A stretch of 51,862 bases of DNA, taken from NCBI GenBank assembly GCA_026414805.1, contig JAOAIH010000014.1, positions 1-51,862 on the forward strand, written 5' to 3'. Below the pieces are notes generated by a model. That model was not told the origin of the DNA. It ran no database searches and worked only from the letters and a program-made list of their open reading frames with translations. This document shows positions 3,155 through 44,098 of this stretch, piece after piece (the stretch's first letter is position 1; every line of letters starts with the position of its first letter). Origin of the DNA: Spirochaetota bacterium. Its GTDB lineage: Bacteria > Spirochaetota > UBA4802 > UB4802. Position numbers and translations under genes: made by a program.

Positions 3155-6100
3155 ATGCTTACAAAAGTTTCCACCCAAAGCAGTTTGTGCCGATTTGCCA
3201 TTAGCGATGAGGAAAAGCTGTCCGATGAAAAGGTAAAAGAAGAAATAAGGAAAGCGTTTGAGGAACTTCGCGCATTCCCTTTCACCGTAAATTCAGCCAT
3301 TATTAATTCTTTAAAAAGCGGTGCAGATATCTCATCTTTTAAAGATTCCTTTATTGCTATACGGAATGACATTTTCACTTCAATTACCGATAGCCCACAG
3401 GCACAGGAAAAGATAATATCTGATGTTAGATTACAGAACAGAATTCTAGATGCAATCACCAAAATCCATAACATAATTGCTGCAGGTGATTTTACTTCTC
3501 TATCAACACGGCGTTTTGTGCTAATCAAAGAACGGCCTAACTGGCCCACGTTATTTTATATTTCACCTACAAGTGCTGTGTTATCCCATGTTGGACAAGG
3601 CCCGCAATGGACTGAAATACCCACTATTTATTTGGGATTAAATATTTTCAATGTTTTAGCTTTAGACAAAGATAAAAAATTTGATGAAGCATTTTACTGG
3701 CTTTTAAAGGTTGAAGAGCGGGCAATAGAAACTGGTTATTCTCATATTGAGGTGTATCCTCCTCATGTATCTCGTGCTCTGAATGCACTGCTTGATGAAG
3801 TAATCCGTATTGCAACAATTTCAGAAGTTGAATTTAAGGAAGTACCTGAAAGAAAAAAAATAAGACCCTTTACTGTCCGCAACCGTGAAAGCTTTTTAAG
3901 GATGCTCAATGCTCGAACACCGGATGATAATTTTGATTTTGAAAAAAATCTCAAAGCTATACGCTCCCTTGAACGCCTAGCTCGTCGATATAAAAAAGGA
4001 TATGATTTTAATTCGTTACGTGAAATTGTTCGCCTTTTGGTTGCAGCTTCAGGCCATGATATACACGAAATTCGTAATAATGCCAATATTCTCCTTGAGC
4101 GCATCTTTGCACCCAAGGAGTTTGATGCACCACTTGCCACTACATTTGTAAACTGTGCAGCTGGTAGTGAACATACATTTAAATTTTCCATACCCGATGA
4201 AGGTGATTATTTTGTGCGTATTTTCTCATATGCAGGCAACAACCCATTCCCTCTTGAGCAGGATATCACATTCATTGATATTGATCTATCCTATGATGAA
4301 ACAAAAAGCATCTATACAGCAACGTATACATTCAATGAATTAGGTCATTATGATTTCCTTGTGTACCGTAAAAGGAAAAAACGCCCACAGTGGGTTCAAT
4401 ATGAAGGCTGTAGCGGCAGAATAAACGTTATCCCTGATGTTCGTGGGCAAATTGTACTGGAGATATTTCCTGATATACACGGCCATACACGCATCTACTG
4501 GATGGATGAAGAGCATCCCGGTTTGGTTTACAATGAACACGGCGAAGTCATTCGCTTGGGACGTTTCAGCGACATTACGGCACACCTTGAGGATTTAAAA
4601 GAACGCTATCATATAACTGCCCTGTATCTTTTGGGTGTGCAGAAGCGTGGTACAAACCGCGAAGACTGGGCACCTGAGGCAACTTCGCCTTCACCGTTTT
4701 CACCAATGAGCTTAGTAGAGATAGAAGATTTTCTAGGTGGTGAAAAGGAGTTTATGGAGCTTGTTGCAAAAGCTCATGCAATGGATATTAAAATCATCAT
4801 CGACGTCGTACCTCACCTTAACCGCCGCAGTACAGAGCTTCCTGATGAGTATGCAGTTAAATGCTATGACGACAGCGGCAATTTAGTCATTCGTGCTTCA
4901 ACTGATGGAAGATACGGCAGTTGGAATGATGGCAAATTATTGAATTACCGCAAGTTTGAAGTATGGGAATGGCTCATTAACAGTGTGTGTACACTAATAG
5001 ACAAATATGACATTGATGGTATACGTTTTGATTCAGCACATGCTGTCCCCATCATGATGAAAAAGAACAATTATCCCTTTGTATGGGGTCAGTATCGCTC
5101 ATTAGAATCATTAGTTGAAGGTGAAATAATAGTAAATGACAGGGAAGATGGGCATTTTATAACAACCGGATATTATGATAGTGCCTGCAGGGATCAGATT
5201 GCTATCCCCTTTCATTATCTTTTAATGAGCCGCATTGCACAAAAGCTGAAAGAGAAAAACAAAACGTTTTTCGTGCACTTAGCCGAATGCTACTGGGGCC
5301 ATGAACGATATCTTACCCGCAGTGGTATAATTCCGTACAATTCTGCCCTTTTCAAGATATGCGAAGGGATCATTCATGGTACCACTGATGTCCGGGAGGT
5401 GTACCATTTTTATGATAACTATCTCCCATACGCGTTACCGCCAGGTACTGAGCTATTAGGCATTCTAGGAAATCATGATGAGCGGCGTGCACTTAATACA
5501 TTTGGCCATAGGGGACTGAGGGCTGCTATTGGTCTTACTATTTTTATGAATAACATCATTATGGATTATGAAGGCAGCGCCGAGGGTGAAAACTGGAAGG
5601 TATATCTTGACAACATCTATGTTAACTGGAATCAATTTGAATATGTAGCACACCGTAGTCTTGAATCATTTTACCGCCAATGGTATAGGTTTCATCGCAA
5701 CAATAAGGGCAAAGGATATTTGATATGGGCAAATAATCATCTTGTCGCAGCATCAATAAAATTCACAGAACATACAATATGGATTGGGGTTTTTAATTTT
5801 GCCGATAGCTCTCAGAATGTTGCATTGCAGTTTGATAACCCGCGTCTACCCATTGATGACAATGCCTATTATAAAGTGGTTGACCCTGTATATTCTCCCA
5901 TTACCAAACATTACAGCTACTATACCGGCAGAGAACTCAAGGCTTCAAAGATTTATACGGTTGTATCCTACACTGACAGAATCAAGCTATTAAAATTAGA
6001 ACCAGTCTCTGACATTGCTCCCTTGTACAATGATTTCCTTAAGGATTCACTATTCAGACTTTATTCAATCAGCAATCCTGAAAATTTTAAATCAAATTTT

Positions 6101-7996
6101 ATGTTCCTTGAATCAATAGCGCATCTTTCCTCTTTTGAGAGGTTTATTGCGTTTCTTAAAGAGCAAATAATTGCACAATTTTACCCTCAATATAAAAATT
6201 TCATTGAGATTGGATTTAAACGAATTCTTTTTTATATGTTTAAATTTGGGTTTAAATCAGGTAACAACATACTGAAACTAATTGATGACCTGGCATCTCA
6301 TGAAGATACTAATATATCTGATTTAGGTAAAAGTATACAATTCCATAATAGGCGAGGCCCAATCATTTTTGTATCAGCCGAAGCAGAACCATTTTCCAAA
6401 AGCGGTGGCCTTGCTAACGTTGTATATGAACTGCCGCGCGAGATGGTTAGCTTAGGTGAAGAAGTCATTGTCATAACACCTAAATACCGCCTGGGTGATG
6501 AAAAGGCAATGGAGAAAATGAACAATGCATTGAATAAATATAACGTCCAGTATACTGGCAAAAACGTACGTTTTATGATAGAAAATATATCCTACGAGGT
6601 TGGAGTCCATTATGCACAGGTTGATGGCATCCATTATTATCTTTTAGACCACCATGAATTTTTTGATGGCTTGTATTGGGGTTATACAGGGCAAGAGAAG
6701 TTACGGCGGCGTATTGCATTTGCCCGCGCTACAGCTGAACTTATCACGACGTTTGGTCTGTATCCTCTTTTCGTCATAACCAACGATGCATATACTGGTA
6801 TCTTCAATGGTATTGTCCGCAGTGATCATGTATACTATGATAATCCAAACTTTAAACGGACATCATTCTTCCATATAATCCATAATGGAGGCTGGCAGTA
6901 TTTTGATTCATACCATCGCTATGAAGACGGCAAAGATCTATTCTCGTTGTTTAATCTACCTCACTGGCGCTTTAATGATTTTTCTGATCCTAATGATTAT
7001 AATAAAATAAACTGTATGGCAACCGGTATTCGATTTGCTGACAGGGTTATAACTGTTAGCCCTTCGTATGCAAAGCAAATAGAAAAAGCCTGTGATGGTC
7101 TTGAAAAAATTCTACACAATGTAATTGGCATAAGCAATGCACTGGGAGTTGATTTTAAGAACAGGATACTTATGCGCTTTCACAATTCAGGATTTGTTGA
7201 CGAGCATTACCCAAAAATGATTGAAGCTGTAAAGACTAATACATCAATCTATGAAAAAATTCAAAAGCGGTACCCTGAAATACTAGAAGGCATCCGCAAT
7301 TGCGAAAAGATTAAAGACCCATTACGTCGTGAATACGTAACTCACATTAGGAATAAGCTCTGTTTTCAACATAAATTTGGTTTTGCAATTGACCCTGATA
7401 TTATTTTGTTTTCCATGATACACCGCATCGCAGAACAAAAAGGCTTTCAACTTCTATTAGAAGCATCGTACGGGATATTTACTACATTGGGCTTTCAGGG
7501 TTTCATTGGTGGTGCAGTTGCCTGGGGTGACCAGCGTGGAAGTGAGCTTGCAACAGGCCTACTCCACCTTCAGGGCTATTATCCAAAAAATGTACATGTC
7601 AATTTAGGATTTCAGGATATCAGTGTGCCACTGTTGTGCACTGATGTATTTTTAATGCCATCACTGCATGAACCCGGTGGCATATCCCAGCTAGAAGCAT
7701 TAGCATGTGGTTGCTTAGTTGTTGCACGTGCAACTGGTGGGTTGCGCGATACTGTTATTCCCATTCGCGTGAAAGAGTCATCCGTTGAAGGGAATGGATT
7801 TTTATTTTCCGACTTTACCCCTTCGTCTTTCTATGATGCAATGCAACGATGTGCTGAATTTTTTAATAAAAACGATGATACAACAAAAGCACTAGCACGC
7901 CAAAATGCTATGCAGTCAGTCTATTACTGGGACAAACCTGCAAAGGAATATATTAATGTATTGTATTCGCATAAGGAAATTGTACGGGTGGTATAA
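3155..7996 (+). CDS. Fused GH13 alpha-amylase-family enzyme and GT5 glycogen synthase
   Basis: This 1613-residue protein joins two complete enzymes. Residues 1-330 are mostly helical and unrecognised; 330-435 look like a beta-sandwich. The GH13 barrel spans about 435-900 with all four motifs: D550 and H554 in DVVPHLN, R624 and nucleophile D626 in GIRFDSAHA, acid/base E711 in HLAECYW, and N773-H774-D775. A helical linker follows. The GT5 synthase spans about 1068-1613: KSGGLANVV (K1082), HRIAEQKGF, and E1506/E1514 in EPGGISQLE, the pattern of ADP-glucose-dependent synthases. It should extend alpha-1,4-glucan from ADP-glucose while the GH13 part hydrolyses or transfers glucan; which reaction is unclear. 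There is no signal peptide, so it is cytoplasmic. GlgC, which makes the donor sugar, is at 40756-41976. The ribosome site before ATG is weak (AAAGG). Confidence 0.93.
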   Translation: MLTKVSTQSSLCRFAISDEEKLSDEKVKEEIRKAFEELRAFPFTVNSAIINSLKSGADISSFKDSFIAIRNDIFTSITDSPQAQEKIISDVRLQNRILDAITKIHNIIAAGDFTSLSTRRFVLIKERPNWPTLFYISPTSAVLSHVGQGPQWTEIPTIYLGLNIFNVLALDKDKKFDEAFYWLLKVEERAIETGYSHIEVYPPHVSRALNALLDEVIRIATISEVEFKEVPERKKIRPFTVRNRESFLRMLNARTPDDNFDFEKNLKAIRSLERLARRYKKGYDFNSLREIVRLLVAASGHDIHEIRNNANILLERIFAPKEFDAPLATTFVNCAAGSEHTFKFSIPDEGDYFVRIFSYAGNNPFPLEQDITFIDIDLSYDETKSIYTATYTFNELGHYDFLVYRKRKKRPQWVQYEGCSGRINVIPDVRGQIVLEIFPDIHGHTRIYWMDEEHPGLVYNEHGEVIRLGRFSDITAHLEDLKERYHITALYLLGVQKRGTNREDWAPEATSPSPFSPMSLVEIEDFLGGEKEFMELVAKAHAMDIKIIIDVVPHLNRRSTELPDEYAVKCYDDSGNLVIRASTDGRYGSWNDGKLLNYRKFEVWEWLINSVCTLIDKYDIDGIRFDSAHAVPIMMKKNNYPFVWGQYRSLESLVEGEIIVNDREDGHFITTGYYDSACRDQIAIPFHYLLMSRIAQKLKEKNKTFFVHLAECYWGHERYLTRSGIIPYNSALFKICEGIIHGTTDVREVYHFYDNYLPYALPPGTELLGILGNHDERRALNTFGHRGLRAAIGLTIFMNNIIMDYEGSAEGENWKVYLDNIYVNWNQFEYVAHRSLESFYRQWYRFHRNNKGKGYLIWANNHLVAASIKFTEHTIWIGVFNFADSSQNVALQFDNPRLPIDDNAYYKVVDPVYSPITKHYSYYTGRELKASKIYTVVSYTDRIKLLKLEPVSDIAPLYNDFLKDSLFRLYSISNPENFKSNFMFLESIAHLSSFERFIAFLKEQIIAQFYPQYKNFIEIGFKRILFYMFKFGFKSGNNILKLIDDLASHEDTNISDLGKSIQFHNRRGPIIFVSAEAEPFSKSGGLANVVYELPREMVSLGEEVIVITPKYRLGDEKAMEKMNNALNKYNVQYTGKNVRFMIENISYEVGVHYAQVDGIHYYLLDHHEFFDGLYWGYTGQEKLRRRIAFARATAELITTFGLYPLFVITNDAYTGIFNGIVRSDHVYYDNPNFKRTSFFHIIHNGGWQYFDSYHRYEDGKDLFSLFNLPHWRFNDFSDPNDYNKINCMATGIRFADRVITVSPSYAKQIEKACDGLEKILHNVIGISNALGVDFKNRILMRFHNSGFVDEHYPKMIEAVKTNTSIYEKIQKRYPEILEGIRNCEKIKDPLRREYVTHIRNKLCFQHKFGFAIDPDIILFSMIHRIAEQKGFQLLLEASYGIFTTLGFQGFIGGAVAWGDQRGSELATGLLHLQGYYPKNVHVNLGFQDISVPLLCTDVFLMPSLHEPGGISQLEALACGCLVVARATGGLRDTVIPIRVKESSVEGNGFLFSDFTPSSFYDAMQRCAEFFNKNDDTTKALARQNAMQSVYYWDKPAKEYINVLYSHKEIVRVV

Positions 7997-37559: not shown

Positions 37560-38234
37560 ATGGAAGATCAGAAGCAGATAAATATTTTAAGAATAGGTGT
37601 TGCCAATCTATCTGAACTTGAAGAGATAGTGAAGGCATTCCGCTTGATGAATCAATATGCAAAGCGCAGGCGCTTTGTTGTTTCGCGTGAAGAATTACGA
37701 GATATGTATGGGAATATTATAGTTGAAAAAGCACATGATATCAATATATCGGTTGTAAAACTGCTTCAGCGAAACTTCAAGCCTGACAATGATTTTAAAA
37801 TATTCAGCTCAGATGAGGGGATAGCGATAGTTACTAATACTGAATCACCTAATGCAAAGGAATTTTCGTTACAACTTATAGCCACCATTGAAGGAATAGG
37901 CGGGGGAATCTATAAACCATTTATTGATATAGTACCAAGCTTTTATGAACTGTTCAAGTTATTTGAAAAGGGGCTATCGCCAAAAATGGTGGTAGTGGGA
38001 TATATCCCTATAAAACAGGTTGCTCAAGAGGTTTCCATGTATAATGAAATTAAAAAATATGACCCTTATATTAGAATTCTTGATATTACACATGATGAAT
38101 TAAAACCAAAATCCTTTTTAAAAGGCGCTGTAACATTCCATTTTGACAATACCCATAAAGTGTGGCAAAGATTTTTAACCAAACTAATTCAGGAATACAC
38201 TAAACCATATTTTATGGAACAAATTACAAGATAA
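37560..38234 (+). CDS. Hypothetical protein heading the kinase/glgC cluster
   Basis: I do not recognise this 224-residue protein. It has no signal peptide or membrane helix and reads as mixed alpha/beta: INILRIGVANLSELEEIV at the start, ISVVKLLQRNF, then a hydrophobic GIGGGIYKPFIDIVPSFYEL and KMVVVGYIPIKQVAQEVSMY. Some of this recalls ligand-binding folds, but no family motif is clear. No ribosome site precedes ATG, and the promoter elements lie so close that the mRNA is probably leaderless. The sensor kinase gene starts 13 bases downstream, so this may be an accessory or input protein for it. Confidence 0.7.
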   Translation: MEDQKQINILRIGVANLSELEEIVKAFRLMNQYAKRRRFVVSREELRDMYGNIIVEKAHDINISVVKLLQRNFKPDNDFKIFSSDEGIAIVTNTESPNAKEFSLQLIATIEGIGGGIYKPFIDIVPSFYELFKLFEKGLSPKMVVVGYIPIKQVAQEVSMYNEIKKYDPYIRILDITHDELKPKSFLKGAVTFHFDNTHKVWQRFLTKLIQEYTKPYFMEQITR

Positions 38235-38247
38235 TGTAATTCATAGT

Positions 38248-40290
38248 ATGAAACAAAAGGTACTACAGTATTTTGCCATAACACTTTTCATAACAGTTAT
38301 ATGTTGTAGCATACTTATTTCTATTTTATTGAACTTCATTGCACCATACTCATTTATATTTTATTTAACTATACTCTGTACTATTTTGTTAATTTTTCTT
38401 TTTGTTTTTACCATAAAAATACATAAAAACCTCTTTGAAGATCAGATTAAAACATTATACTCAATAATTGAAAACTTTAAAAAAGGGATATTCCAGCATA
38501 GTGATGAAAAGATAATTAAGGATGGCCCCTTTGGAGGGCTCTATACACAGTTACTAACAGCTTCAAGAAATATTGAAAACATCATTAAATCACAAAAAAG
38601 CGAAATTGAAAAGCTCAGAGAACTGTATACTAACATGATGTTTTCAATGAATGCTTACATAGTTGTGATTGATTTAAATAATACTATCATTTTTACCAAT
38701 GACTCATTTTTAAATAAATTTCAATACACTCCGCTTGAAGTAACAGGCAAAAATATCTCTGAAATTTTTTATTTTTTAACAGGTACTGTATTACAGGCCA
38801 TTGACGAGATAAAAAAAAGTCATGAATCAATAGTACTGGAAAAAGCTCACCTTATATCTAATAACCGTATCTCCGTTATTGTCAATATTAAATTGTCGTA
38901 TATGATTTCAAACAATGAGCCTCAAATAATTATGGTAATGGATGATGTGACAAGCAAAACAAAGCGCGACTACCAGATATCGCTCATTACACGGTTATCA
39001 GAACAAATACAAAAAGACGACGTGTTAGATCACGTATTGCGTACTATATTAACTGCTGTAACATCCGGTACAGGACTTGGATTCAATCGTGCTATGCTTT
39101 TTTTAAAGGATGAAAAAAATAATGTCCTCTATGGACGAATGGCTGTTGGGCCGGATACTCTTGAAGAGGCATTTTCCATCTGGAGCAGTTTGAGCCCTCA
39201 AAAAGATAAAGAAATTTTAAGCAGAGGATTAAATGGTGATGACATCCATGGCAAAAAGTTAAAGGAAAAAGTAGAACATGCTTCTTTTGATTTAAATGAA
39301 CACACTATTTTCACTGAAGCATTTACATCAGGTGAACCCATTCATGTCCAAGATGCGTACAGAGACCATCGTTTGAATGATGAAATACGATCATTCATGG
39401 ACGTGAATGAATTTGTTGTTGTTCCTCTTATTGCTTTGAATAAAACTATTGGCATTATCATAGCTGATAACAAATTCAATCAAATGCCAATTACCCAGGA
39501 TAATGTTGATCTTTTAACTGTATTTGCCTATCAGGCAGCATTATCTATAGAAAGCTATAACAACCTGGAGCTTCTTAAAAAAGAAATGGAAAAAATAAAA
39601 CAGCGCCAAGAAGCCATAGTTGAATCGGAAAAACTGGCTGCCATTGGCCGTATCGCATCACACATTGCTCACGAAATTAGAAATCCTCTTGTGACTGTTG
39701 GTGGATACTCACGCAGGATATTCCAGGATGCTAGTGAAAATCCACCTAATGTACAAAAAATAAAAAAAGCTGCACAGATAATAATGACCGAAACCGAGCG
39801 GCTTGAAAAAATTCTTGCAAATGTAATGGATTTCACCAGGCCATCTCCTTTTCTGCTGCGGTTTAATAATATCAATGAAATAATCAAAGATACTGCTTCA
39901 CTGCTTTCCAATCTTTTCCAGGAAAGGCGCGTGGAGCTATCGCTACAACTTCAGGAAGTACCATTAATCAAATCCGATTTTAACCAGATGAAGCAGGTAA
40001 TGCTCAATCTCTTGCAAAATGCTTTGGACGCAACTCCACCTTACGGTGTGGTGGAAGTTAAAACGTATGCAGATGACAAATATGTGTACATCGAAGTCAG
40101 CGATACAGGTACGGGAATAAATGAAGAAAATATTAATATAATATTTGAACCTTTTTATACAACAAAGACTACTGGAGTTGGTCTTGGCCTTGCAATTGTA
40201 AAAAAAATTGTAGTTGATCATAACGGGGAAATAAAAGTAGCTAATAAAGAAAGGGGAGCTGTATTTACAATTTCAATACCTCTGCCATAA
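38248..40290 (+). CDS. Membrane sensor histidine kinase (PAS-GAF-HisKA-HATPase)
   Basis: This 680-residue protein has two transmembrane helices at about 8-31 and 35-57 with almost no external loop. A PAS domain follows at about 125-230 (MNAYIVVIDLNNTIIFTNDS), a GAF domain at about 265-440 (HVQDAYRDHRLNDEIRSF), a dimerisation domain with phospho-acceptor H475 in IAHEIRNPL, and an ATPase domain. The ATPase domain is complete: LLQNALDATPP, SDTGTGINEE and TGVGLGLAIVKKI. Signals are probably cytoplasmic or membrane-borne. The single-domain response regulator 105 bases downstream is its likely partner, and glgC follows that gene directly. Confidence 0.93.
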   Translation: MKQKVLQYFAITLFITVICCSILISILLNFIAPYSFIFYLTILCTILLIFLFVFTIKIHKNLFEDQIKTLYSIIENFKKGIFQHSDEKIIKDGPFGGLYTQLLTASRNIENIIKSQKSEIEKLRELYTNMMFSMNAYIVVIDLNNTIIFTNDSFLNKFQYTPLEVTGKNISEIFYFLTGTVLQAIDEIKKSHESIVLEKAHLISNNRISVIVNIKLSYMISNNEPQIIMVMDDVTSKTKRDYQISLITRLSEQIQKDDVLDHVLRTILTAVTSGTGLGFNRAMLFLKDEKNNVLYGRMAVGPDTLEEAFSIWSSLSPQKDKEILSRGLNGDDIHGKKLKEKVEHASFDLNEHTIFTEAFTSGEPIHVQDAYRDHRLNDEIRSFMDVNEFVVVPLIALNKTIGIIIADNKFNQMPITQDNVDLLTVFAYQAALSIESYNNLELLKKEMEKIKQRQEAIVESEKLAAIGRIASHIAHEIRNPLVTVGGYSRRIFQDASENPPNVQKIKKAAQIIMTETERLEKILANVMDFTRPSPFLLRFNNINEIIKDTASLLSNLFQERRVELSLQLQEVPLIKSDFNQMKQVMLNLLQNALDATPPYGVVEVKTYADDKYVYIEVSDTGTGINEENINIIFEPFYTTKTTGVGLGLAIVKKIVVDHNGEIKVANKERGAVFTISIPLP

Positions 40291-40395
40291 AATAGTAAAA
40301 GTTTACATGATAGTGTATTAAGATAAAAAAATGTTTTTGCTTTTTTTAAACAATGATGTACCTTAGTTAATAGAAATATACATCAGGAGGTTGTT

Positions 40396-40755
40396 ATGAA
40401 AAAAATACTGATTGTTGAAGATGAACAGCATCAACGCGAACTGTATGCAATGGAACTCCAGGAAGAAGGATATGACGTTGACCAGGCAGCAAATGGGAAG
40501 GAAGCGGTGGATAAAGTCAAAGCTAATAAATATGATTGTGTAGTGCTAGATATTCGCATGCCCGAAATGGATGGCATTGAAGCACTGGGAAAAATCCTAT
40601 CACGTGATAAAAAGGTCCCCATTATTATCTATACTGCATATTCCAATTATAAAAGCAATTTTATGACCTGGACAGCAGATGCGTATATTACAAAGTCATC
40701 CAATTTAAAAGAACTAAAAGATAAAATCAAAGAACTGGTATCAGCACGAAGCTAA
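40396..40755 (+). CDS. Single-domain response regulator
   Basis: This 119-residue protein is a bare receiver domain. The acidic pocket is EDE at 8-10, the phospho-acceptor D52 in VVLDIRMPEMDG, the conserved threonine in IIYTAYS and lysine K100 in YITKSS. No output domain exists, so it must work by binding a partner, as CheY and Spo0F do. ATG follows AGGAGG. Its stop codon is followed at once by the glgC start codon (no base between), which implies tight co-translation and perhaps a link between signalling and glycogen synthesis. Confidence 0.93.
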   Translation: MKKILIVEDEQHQRELYAMELQEEGYDVDQAANGKEAVDKVKANKYDCVVLDIRMPEMDGIEALGKILSRDKKVPIIIYTAYSNYKSNFMTWTADAYITKSSNLKELKDKIKELVSARS

Positions 40756-41976
40756 ATGGAACTGCAGCAGGCACTGAAAAAAACCCTTGTTTTTATCCTT
40801 GCCGGTGGGCAGGGCGAGCGCCTTTACCCTTTAACTAAAGACAGGTCAAAGCCCTCTGTCCATTTTGCAGGCACCTACCGAATTATTGATTTTTCATTGA
40901 GTAATTGTATCAATTCTGATTTGAGCCGTATTATAGTGCTGACTCAATACAAATCTTTATCGCTTGACCGCCATATTAAAACAGCATGGAATCTTTATTT
41001 CAGGGAGTCGGGAAATTTTATTGATGTTGTCCCACCACAGCAGCGCTATGACGAAAACTGGTATCTGGGGACTGCAGATGCCATATTTCAGAATATATAT
41101 ATCATCGAACATCAAAAACCTCATTATACAGTGATACTATCCGGTGATCATATCTACAAAATGGACTATCGAAAAATGCTTAAATATCATATCCAGAAAA
41201 ATGCAGATATGACTATTGCCGCATGCGAGATGCCAATAGAAGAAGCCAAGCGCTTTGGAGTTCTTGTAACCGATAGCTCCTTACGGGTAGTTGGTTTTGA
41301 AGAAAAACCTGCAAACCCAAAACCAGTCCCCGGAAAACCTGACGTTGCATTTGTTTCCATGGGAATTTATATTTTCACAACTGAAAAACTTGTTCGCTAC
41401 GTATCTGACGATCATAAGCTGGATAGCACAAAAGACTTTGGTAAAGATATTATCCCGCGTATTTTTGCAACCGAGCGCGTGTTTGCTTACGACTACGTTG
41501 CCAACGAAGGAGAGCGCGCTTATTGGCGCGATATAGGTACTATCGCCTCATACTATGAAGCCCATAAGGATATCATATCAGTAACACCCATTCTTAACCT
41601 GTATGATAAGGAATGGCCTATTCGTACTTATATGGAACAGTGGCCTCCGGCAAAATTTGTCCACAATGAAGAAGGAAGAAGAGGCATTGCAATCAATTCA
41701 CTCATAGCCAATGGTGCTATCATAAGCGGTGGATATGTGGAAGAATCGGTTATATCACCCGGTGTAAAAGTTAACAGCTATTCAGAAGTTAGAGGAAGCA
41801 TTATTATGCATGGGACAACTGTTGGGAGGCATGCTAAAATAAAAAATGCTATCATTGATAAAGATAACCATATACCTGAAAATATGCACATTGGCTACAA
41901 CCTAGAAGAAGACAAAAGGCACTTTACAGTAACCCCTGAAGGTATTGTTGTAATACCCAAAGGCTATCTGCAATAA
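40756..41976 (+). CDS. glgC: Glucose-1-phosphate adenylyltransferase (ADP-glucose pyrophosphorylase)
   Basis: This 406-residue enzyme makes ADP-glucose from ATP and glucose-1-phosphate, the committed step of bacterial glycogen synthesis. FILAGGQGERLYPLT is the nucleotide-binding loop. RSKPSVHFAGTYRIIDF and LSNCINS follow, then catalytic SGDHIYKMDY, sugar-binding GFEEKPANP, and a C-terminal left-handed beta-helix (IANGAIISGGYVEESVISPG). It supplies the GT5 half of the fusion at 3155-7996. The start codon directly follows the response regulator stop, and a GH57 enzyme gene follows 64 bases downstream. Allosteric control is expected in the family but cannot be judged here. Confidence 0.96.
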   Translation: MELQQALKKTLVFILAGGQGERLYPLTKDRSKPSVHFAGTYRIIDFSLSNCINSDLSRIIVLTQYKSLSLDRHIKTAWNLYFRESGNFIDVVPPQQRYDENWYLGTADAIFQNIYIIEHQKPHYTVILSGDHIYKMDYRKMLKYHIQKNADMTIAACEMPIEEAKRFGVLVTDSSLRVVGFEEKPANPKPVPGKPDVAFVSMGIYIFTTEKLVRYVSDDHKLDSTKDFGKDIIPRIFATERVFAYDYVANEGERAYWRDIGTIASYYEAHKDIISVTPILNLYDKEWPIRTYMEQWPPAKFVHNEEGRRGIAINSLIANGAIISGGYVEESVISPGVKVNSYSEVRGSIIMHGTTVGRHAKIKNAIIDKDNHIPENMHIGYNLEEDKRHFTVTPEGIVVIPKGYLQ

Positions 41977-42040
41977 ATTTATCGTAAACCACATATTTGG
42001 TGATAGATTAATTAGATATTATTTTGGGAGGAATTGTTCC

Positions 42041-44098
42041 GTGGAGTGTAATTTTATATTCTGTCTACACAACCATCAACCTGTTGGGAATTTTGACCAT
42101 GTGTTTAAATGGGCATATGACGACTGCTACAAAAAAACCCTTGATCTTTTATATCAATATCCTGAGTTTAAATTTGCAATCCACAATTCTGGACCCCTCC
42201 TTGAATGGATAGAAGATCATGACCCCACATATTGTGATATGCTATCACAGATGGTACAGCGAGGTCAGGTTGAAATTATTGGCGGTGGATTTTATGAACC
42301 TATTTTTTCCATTATAAGCGAAGATGACATCCATGGACATATTGCCCTTATGCAGAATTTCTGCAAAAATCGCTTTGGTGTTGAGCCTGTTGGCTTCTGG
42401 ACAGCTGAACGTGTATGGGATCCTGATATCCCCCGGCTGGTTTATGACTTTAAATTACAATACACTTTGCTAGATGATATTCATTTCCGTTATGCAGGAA
42501 TACCTGAAAGTGGCCTGTATGGCTATTACATTACCGAGCGATTACTGAAGCCCCTTAGGGTATTCCCAATTGATAAATTCCTGCGCTATTCAATACCATT
42601 CAAATTGCCTCAAGAAACCATAGATTATTTCAAACGTCAATGCGATAGATACGGCAATTGCGCATTTGTATATGGAGATGATGGTGAAAAGTTTGGTGTA
42701 TGGCCACATACCTATCAATGGGTTTTTGAAGAAAAATGGCTACAAAATTTTATAGAAGCAATTCTAAAAGAAAAATTCATAAATCTTATTCATCCTAAAG
42801 ATTACATTAAGCAGTACCCACCCATAGACAGAGTATATCTCACTCAGGGCAGCTACTATGAAATGTCTGAATGGGCTCTGCCTGCTGAAAGTGCTGCAGA
42901 ACTTGTAAGGATTCATAATGAAATTAAATCTGCTGGCAGGGAAAAAGAATTTTATCCATTTTTAAAAGGTGGTGTGTGGAACAATTTTTTAAACAAATAT
43001 CCTGAATCAAATGCCATAAATAAACGCACCCTCTATCTTTCTCGTGAGATCATAAGTCATGAAATGAAAACAGGAAAAGACCTTTCTAAAGCAAAAATTG
43101 AAATATATAAAGCACAATGCAATTGTGCCTACTGGCATGGGCTTTTTGGCGGTATCTATCTCACACACCTCCGAGGTGCACTGTATGAACATATTTGTGC
43201 CAGCGAAGAAATTCTCTTCACCCATAAGAAGATAGACAAACCTGAGATAATTGCAAATGATTTCCGCAATGAAGGCTCAGATCAGATCTTCATGCGCAAC
43301 AGTTCATGTAGTATTCTTGTTAATCCATCATTTGGTGCTTCAATTTCTGAATTTAGCAACCGTACAAAAAGAGTGAATGCGTTTGATGTTATTGCACGCC
43401 GAAAGGAAGCATACCATCAAATATTAGAACAACTGAATGAAGACGATCTTAACAATGATTCAGTAAAATCCATCCATGATATGGTAATGGTAAAAGAAAA
43501 AGGACTGAAGCGCTACCTTGTGTACGATAGCTCTCGCCGATACTCATGCAAAGAACTTTTATTTACATCAATGCCCTCAGCAGAAGAACTTATGTTCAAT
43601 ACAATACGTTATACGGATTGCTCACAGTATCCTTATGCATATTCAATCACAAATAATAGTATTATATGCGATAGCACATGCTCTCCATTGCCAGCAATAA
43701 CAAAAACTATTACCATCCACGATATTGATCCAATTGTTACTGTACATTACACAATAAGCAAATATAGTGGTATTCTGGGAATAGAATGCAATGTCAATAT
43801 GCGTGCTCCACATGCAAAGGAATGCTACTATAGCATTGAAGGGCTGAGTGAAGAAGATTCATATCTGGACAGTATTGGCAAATCTGAAAATATTTCGCAG
43901 TGTGCAATTGTTGATAATAACCGTAACGTCACATTCAACTTACAGATTAGTAAGCCAGTAACTTTACTTCGCTATCCTTTATACACCGTTTCACAATCTG
44001 ACTCTGGTTTTGAGAAAAACTATCAGGGAAGTTGCATTGTGTTATGTATAAATGTGGATAGTACCCTGGAGATTGATCTTACAATGTCTCTGCTATGA
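42041..44098 (+). CDS. GH57 4-alpha-glucanotransferase-like enzyme
   Basis: This 685-residue protein belongs to glycoside hydrolase family 57. It begins with FCLHNHQPVGNFD (motif HQP), and has GGGFYEPIFSII, GFWTAERVWDP with nucleophile E123, and YGDDGEKFGVWP with acid/base D214. These positions match the numbering I recall for the Thermococcus litoralis 4-alpha-glucanotransferase, and the length is similar. The C-terminal half (about 300-685) is a beta-rich domain as in that enzyme. It should transfer alpha-1,4-glucan segments and so reshape glycogen or maltodextrin. The start is GTG at 42041 behind GGGAGG. It follows glgC, so both are probably in one operon. Confidence 0.92.
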   Translation: MECNFIFCLHNHQPVGNFDHVFKWAYDDCYKKTLDLLYQYPEFKFAIHNSGPLLEWIEDHDPTYCDMLSQMVQRGQVEIIGGGFYEPIFSIISEDDIHGHIALMQNFCKNRFGVEPVGFWTAERVWDPDIPRLVYDFKLQYTLLDDIHFRYAGIPESGLYGYYITERLLKPLRVFPIDKFLRYSIPFKLPQETIDYFKRQCDRYGNCAFVYGDDGEKFGVWPHTYQWVFEEKWLQNFIEAILKEKFINLIHPKDYIKQYPPIDRVYLTQGSYYEMSEWALPAESAAELVRIHNEIKSAGREKEFYPFLKGGVWNNFLNKYPESNAINKRTLYLSREIISHEMKTGKDLSKAKIEIYKAQCNCAYWHGLFGGIYLTHLRGALYEHICASEEILFTHKKIDKPEIIANDFRNEGSDQIFMRNSSCSILVNPSFGASISEFSNRTKRVNAFDVIARRKEAYHQILEQLNEDDLNNDSVKSIHDMVMVKEKGLKRYLVYDSSRRYSCKELLFTSMPSAEELMFNTIRYTDCSQYPYAYSITNNSIICDSTCSPLPAITKTITIHDIDPIVTVHYTISKYSGILGIECNVNMRAPHAKECYYSIEGLSEEDSYLDSIGKSENISQCAIVDNNRNVTFNLQISKPVTLLRYPLYTVSQSDSGFEKNYQGSCIVLCINVDSTLEIDLTMSLL

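Follow-up and report, generated by a model that had tools for sequence, protein, structure and literature searches.

The locus at positions 37560-44098 of the window raises the question of what a stand-alone receiver domain acts on when its gene runs directly into glgC. By the window we mean the whole stretch of DNA that was analyzed, 51,862 nucleotides in length, which is contig C14 of a 3.24 Mb Spirochaetota MAG. Glycogen synthesis in bacteria is committed and regulated at the step of GlgC, the ADP-glucose pyrophosphorylase, which has classically been seen as metabolite-controlled.

Organization of the locus

The locus is made up of five genes (Table 1): an open reading frame of unassigned family (ORF1), a histidine kinase (HK), the receiver (RR), glgC, and a GH57-type enzyme. 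A sequence-only reading of this DNA had described the five as co-directional, with the stop codon of the receiver abutting the start codon of glgC, and both points are borne out. The five open reading frames in 37560-44098 lie on the + strand, and the glgC ATG (40756) follows immediately, and in frame, upon the receiver TAA (40753-40755). The intergenic gaps are 13 bp between ORF1 and HK, 105 bp between HK and RR, 0 bp between RR and glgC, and 64 bp between glgC and the GH57 gene.

Table 1. Coordinates of the features of the receiver-glgC locus in the window.
Feature	Position	Strand	Remarks
ORF1	37560-38234	+	224 aa; family unassigned; peripheral to module
HK, membrane sensor histidine kinase, PAS-GAF-HisKA-HATPase_c	38248-40290	+	Pfam/NCBIfam matches
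RR, single-domain receiver, 119 aa	40396-40755	+	PF00072, 1.1e-29
RR stop/glgC start junction	40753-40758	+	0 bp, same frame
glgC, glucose-1-phosphate adenylyltransferase (ADP-glucose pyrophosphorylase)	40756-41976	+	TIGR02091, NF001947, Pfam
GH57 alpha-glucan enzyme, optional member	42041-44098	+	PF03065, PF09094, PF09095
Short protein, ~120 aa	44148-44513	-	convergent with GH57; no Pfam match

No clear Shine-Dalgarno sequence for glgC is seen at the junction in the window, and the abutting of the two genes without one is consistent with translational coupling. A promoter and terminator scan returned promoter-like sites at the number expected from shuffled sequence, with no excess; a 10-of-12 promoter-like site at 40264-40293, ahead of the receiver gene, is not taken as evidence. 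The short convergent protein at the end of the locus usually stays beside the GH57 gene in families f1, f2, f5, and f6 of the order.

Domains and conserved residues

In the receiver, PF00072 spans residues 4-112 of 119, and no other family scores above its cut-off, so that the Pfam search leaves the protein without an output domain. A receiver of this kind must therefore act by contact with another protein. Reading of its sequence identifies E8 and D9 as the acid pocket, D52 as the phospho-acceptor, T80 and Y97 as switch residues, and K100 as the conserved Lys. We compared these positions over 113 distinct relatives, 56 of them linked to glgC. D9, D52, W92, A94, and K100 are invariant in 56/56 glgC-linked receivers, all of which also carry T or S at position 80, and in what should be the alpha4-beta5 region Y85, F89, W92, A94, and Y97 vary hardly at all. 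The expected output face is thus strongly conserved, and the phospho-site is intact in each glgC-linked receiver checked.

The GlgC protein scores above curated equivalog cut-offs, with 478 bits for TIGR02091 (cut-off 424.9) and 570.2 bits for NF001947 (cut-off 470). It combines a nucleotidyltransferase with a left-handed beta-helix domain (PF00483, PF24894, PF25247), and the motifs GDHIYK and EKP can be read from its sequence. The kinase matches PF00512 (HisKA), PF02518 (HATPase_c), PAS_9, and GAF, all above cut-off, and its N-terminus holds two hydrophobic stretches. The GH57 enzyme carries the catalytic domain PF03065 together with the alpha-amylase/4-alpha-glucanotransferase middle and C-terminal domains PF09094 and PF09095, and by these domains it may be either an amylase or a transferase. 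ORF1 gave no Pfam or NCBIfam match and no convincing PDB relative, and its AlphaFold2 model (pLDDT 44) was unusable. Homologues of ORF1, one copy each and with conserved DEGI and GGG motifs, are present in 51 of 393 sampled Spirochaetota genomes.

The receiver-glgC pair within the order

Conservation of the locus was assessed over a sample of 46 genomes of the window's order. In all 17 that carry the window-type glgC, the products of which are 66-92% identical to that of the window, the receiver gene lies directly upstream of it. In one genome (G002) the pair is split over two contig ends, with both fragments compatible with pairing. Among the glgC-bearing genomes the receiver is 82-99% identical, compared with 66-92% for GlgC and about 50-85% for the kinase, the latter mostly about 50% outside the window's genus.

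The other members of the locus are less constant. The complete five-gene order is kept within the genus, and the sister genus is without GH57, which is present in 16/46 genomes of the order. ORF1 occupies this position in the window's own family alone; within the order no homologue was found beyond that family, and more distant homologues do not adjoin this HK-RR-glgC arrangement. A kinase orthologue is found in 44/46 genomes. In family f5, however, the kinase is absent from the locus, where alaS- and recX-like genes lie upstream instead, and its orthologue, mostly 51-55% identical, is encoded on another contig. In this family the receiver has thus been parted from its kinase and has stayed with glgC.

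As a whole, these results rule out the five genes as one unit, since ORF1 and GH57 are not general members. The proposed five-gene order therefore holds in part: the receiver-glgC pair is conserved across families and phyla, whereas ORF1 is confined to one family and GH57 to part of the order. The sequence-only reading had also named the case in which gene order would not extend beyond this strain; this did not materialize, as the receiver-glgC adjacency recurs well outside it.

The receiver-glgC pair across phyla

A receiver-based scan of 84,980 species genomes repeatedly returned glgC as the gene following the receiver in Planctomycetota, Armatimonadota, Acidobacteriota, Thermodesulfobacteriota, Verrucomicrobiota, and Glassbacteria, several of these cases being single MAG contigs; in Acidobacteriota, Armatimonadota, Verrucomicrobiota, and Glassbacteria the pair was seen in a single genome each. 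Beyond the order, the sampling relied on a profile built largely from glgC-linked receivers, which favours such receivers. The observations throughout are of genome context, mostly in MAGs.

Two phyla were sampled more densely. In an even draw of 294 Planctomycetota genomes, 43 carry this receiver, and in 30 of these 43 glgC follows it directly on the same strand. The other 13 comprise one genome with glgC before the receiver, three cut by a contig end, four with a galT/glgA-HK-RR arrangement, three with the kinase only, and two with neither; the four galT/glgA-HK-RR genomes are of the Brocadia type and have glgC elsewhere. The window's type of GlgC is found in 39/43 receiver-bearing Planctomycetota as against 98/251 others (Fisher p 8e-11). 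For Desulfobacterota (395 genomes), we examined the best 30 profile hits and 40 further ones: the receiver adjoins glgC in 28/30 of the best and 20/40 of the further hits, and among the remainder of those 40, 10 carry a galT-like, glgA, or GH57 gene in the flank that was fetched.

The junction could be measured for 87 pairs: their median gap is 2 bp, 42 pairs abut or overlap, and 84 lie within 100 bp. Flags of internal stops on some receivers arose from matches that run past the receiver stop, as was seen at those spirochaete and Brocadia loci that were checked. A tree of 80 GlgC sequences places the receiver-linked proteins on one side, interspersed with five unlinked ones and separate from Treponema-type and second-copy GlgCs, a grouping that holds for this sample, in which the rows from outside Spirochaetota were mostly picked via the receiver. 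A second, distant GlgC (about 37-45% identity to the query) is encoded elsewhere in 9 of 15 genomes searched (L232-L240).

The recurrence of the receiver-glgC pair across phyla is far above chance. The pair forms a widely conserved core, around which ORF1 is peripheral, GH57 is optional, and the kinase is often unlinked.

The receiver follows glgC rather than its kinase

No related kinase lies beside the receiver-glgC pair in 47/48 Desulfobacterota pairs, and the ten upstream genes checked there are varied, with none encoding a kinase. Among the genes upstream of these pairs are MscS-type channels at two loci (L388, L394) and CdhD-domain proteins at three (L402, L409, L412). Furthermore, three Planctomycetota genomes (G652, G662, G575) carry two receivers each, one in a galT-glgA-HK-RR arrangement and one in a receiver-glgC pair without kinase. 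Such two-copy genomes and kinase-less pairs are what one would predict of a receiver best produced alongside GlgC; for a mere operon partner of the kinase they are hard to explain. An apparent 966-aa receiver fusion at L178 and L271 was treated as an ORF-calling artefact, since a kinase reads in another frame over the same DNA.

These observations bear on two other explanations of the locus. The receiver might be a Spo0F-like phosphorelay intermediate, passing its phosphoryl group on to a protein encoded elsewhere, of the HPt or DNA-binding kind, that controls transcription of the glycogen genes, so that the linkage to glgC would reflect co-expression only. Bare receivers can serve in phosphorelays (PMC12802240), and HK-RR pairs do persist without glgC. 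Without its kinase alongside, however, a relay intermediate would not be expected to pair with a single enzyme gene, and no HPt protein, second response regulator, or DNA-binding regulator was noticed as a recurring neighbour of the receiver among the annotated neighbours, some of which were run against Pfam. We regard this explanation as improbable.

Alternatively, the adjacency could be passive: a piece of an operon passed on as a block, by descent or by transfer, with a receiver whose role is general and unrelated to glycogen. This would account for the conservation of the receiver in genomes without glgC, as well as for the extra receiver paralogues that adjoin unrelated genes in Brocadiales-type genomes (P-type ATPase, radical SAM, sigma factor, and YHS domain genes; L300, L305, L310, L311, L315, L316, L319, L324). 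On the other hand, 121 of the 177 distinct receiver copies examined, a non-random sample, adjoin glgC, glgA, galT, or GH57 genes, the spacing to glgC is near zero, and in the three two-copy genomes it is a second receiver that accompanies glgC. Linkage to glgC without a kinase, together with the two-copy genomes, makes both the relay and the passive explanation less likely, and we consider passive adjacency the least plausible of the explanations weighed here.

Receivers without glgC and other candidate partners

The receiver is not confined to genomes with glgC. In 27 genomes of the order (families f3, f6, and f7) it is kept, 64-86% identical, without the window-type glgC, which rules out a strict tie between the two genes in the order. 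Nearly all of these genomes also have the kinase (G032 is cut by a contig end), and their receivers, where read, keep the alpha4 sequence NYKSNFMTW. In f7 the HK-RR pair usually sits at the corresponding locus, after HEAT, endonuclease III, and Ham1 genes, and is followed in one annotated case by PTPS and DegT genes. In two f6 genomes the GH57 gene comes directly after the receiver. Conservation of the receiver in these 27 genomes implies that it has a partner other than GlgC there, and hence that GlgC is not its only target. Conversely, a receiver of this family is lacking in about 98 of the 137 Planctomycetota that carry this GlgC type, so GlgC works without it.

The glgC-less genomes keep alive the explanation that the receiver acts on GlgA, the long GlgA-type GT5 protein, the GH57 enzyme, a galT-like enzyme, or several of these, with glgC as merely the commonest operon partner. 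The HK-RR pair adjoins glgA or a galT-like gene in some Desulfobacterota genomes and in those of the Brocadia type (galT-glgA in the latter), so another glycogen enzyme could be the target; the 10 of 40 lower-ranked Desulfobacterota copies with such genes in the flank and the two f6 genomes with GH57 fit the same pattern, as does the presence of a long GlgA-type-domain protein in most genomes of the order, including most of those without glgC. However, where the glycogen genes are split between loci, the receiver stays with glgC, without the kinase. GH57 and a canonical GlgA are absent from most of the f7 genomes that keep the receiver, and in G039, a largely complete genome with the receiver, there is no match to GT5 whatever. 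We judge this explanation unlikely, though less so than the two above.

Two side observations concern these enzymes. In both Planctomycetota and Desulfobacterota the galT-like gene repeatedly accompanies HK-RR or glgA-HK-RR (L179, L194, L276, L279, L291, L303, L415, L418, L419), and its product is possibly an ADP- or UDP-glucose phosphorylase. The window itself encodes, at 3155-7996 (+), a protein of 1613 aa that contains a GH13-like stretch at residues ~458-634 and, at its C-terminus, a GT5 glycogen/starch synthase domain of the GlgA type. Long GT5 proteins of comparable length are present in nearly every genome of the order, most of the glgC-less ones included. The amylase-plus-GT5 layout recalls fungal alpha-glucan synthases.

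Proposed mechanism

Adjacency to glgC across phyla, near-zero spacing, and the frequent lack of a linked kinase make GlgC the strongest candidate partner. Of the two partners proposed initially, GlgC and the GH57 enzyme, the first is thus favoured by conserved adjacency, although it is not the sole target, and the second is optional. Our preferred reading, to which we assign a probability of about 0.55, is that the receiver is a dedicated phospho-switch of the glycogen pathway and that, where it is paired with glgC, its main target is GlgC itself. We hold at even odds the broader proposition that in many phyla ADP-glucose pyrophosphorylase has this stand-alone receiver as its phospho-controlled regulatory partner, with two-component control acting on the enzyme.

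More specifically, the membrane-bound PAS-GAF kinase would sense an internal or membrane signal and phosphorylate the receiver, presumably at Asp52. The receiver would be made together with GlgC from the coupled genes, and its phosphorylated form would bind GlgC through a putative contact on the alpha4-beta5-alpha5 face. Binding would then change the activity of GlgC, with activation and inhibition both possible, so that two-component signalling, in addition to metabolite allostery, would set the committed step of glycogen synthesis. A naturally adjacent pair in which receiver and GlgC can be read through in frame (L187, TAG read as Q) was modeled with AlphaFold2, using an alignment of L187, six other read-through rows, and GlgC rows. 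The model reached a mean pLDDT of 84.7 and a pTM of 0.72, with receiver blocks at 59-86, scores that carry no inter-domain measure and so speak neither for nor against an interface.

Relation to known systems

Bacterial GlgC is known to be controlled by small metabolites, and glg operons at the level of transcription. The control proposed here concerns the same enzyme and the same regulatory point, and differs in the receiver partner. In E. coli, HPr binds glycogen phosphorylase, where, as proposed for the receiver, a phosphorylatable signalling protein directly tunes a glycogen enzyme. HPr, however, is a PTS protein on a degradation enzyme, whereas the receiver is a two-component protein encoded beside a synthesis enzyme. 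With CheY and Spo0F the receiver shares the lone PF00072 domain and the Asp, Thr, Tyr, and Lys switch residues. It differs from them in that its operon partner is a metabolic enzyme gene, and no flagellar or relay partner genes were noticed beside it.

We know of no receiver partner of GlgC, and the open-access full-text literature searched held no report of a receiver paired with or acting on this enzyme. Receivers, GlgC, and single-domain regulators that control enzymes are each known; their combination in a receiver-GlgC pairing appears to be new, as judged from the open-access literature. The closest case is EpsW, a single-domain response regulator of Myxococcus xanthus, which reportedly interacts with the phosphoglycosyl transferase EpsZ and thereby activates it (PMC12802240). 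EpsW-EpsZ offers a precedent for the receiver-on-enzyme control proposed for the receiver and GlgC, as in both a bare receiver is proposed to act, after phosphorylation, on a polysaccharide-synthesis enzyme by direct contact. EpsZ, in contrast to GlgC, is a phosphoglycosyl transferase of the membrane, and a chemosensory system acts upstream of EpsW, whereas the receiver described here is paired with ADP-glucose pyrophosphorylase and its kinase is a PAS-GAF histidine kinase that is often unlinked.

The receiver-glgC pair is found in at least six named phyla, is common in Desulfobacterota, and also occurs in anammox-type Planctomycetota. Natural pairs are numerous enough to support co-evolution analysis, modelling of the co-complex, and simple biochemistry. 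Their distribution suggests a direct signalling input into carbon storage in these bacteria.
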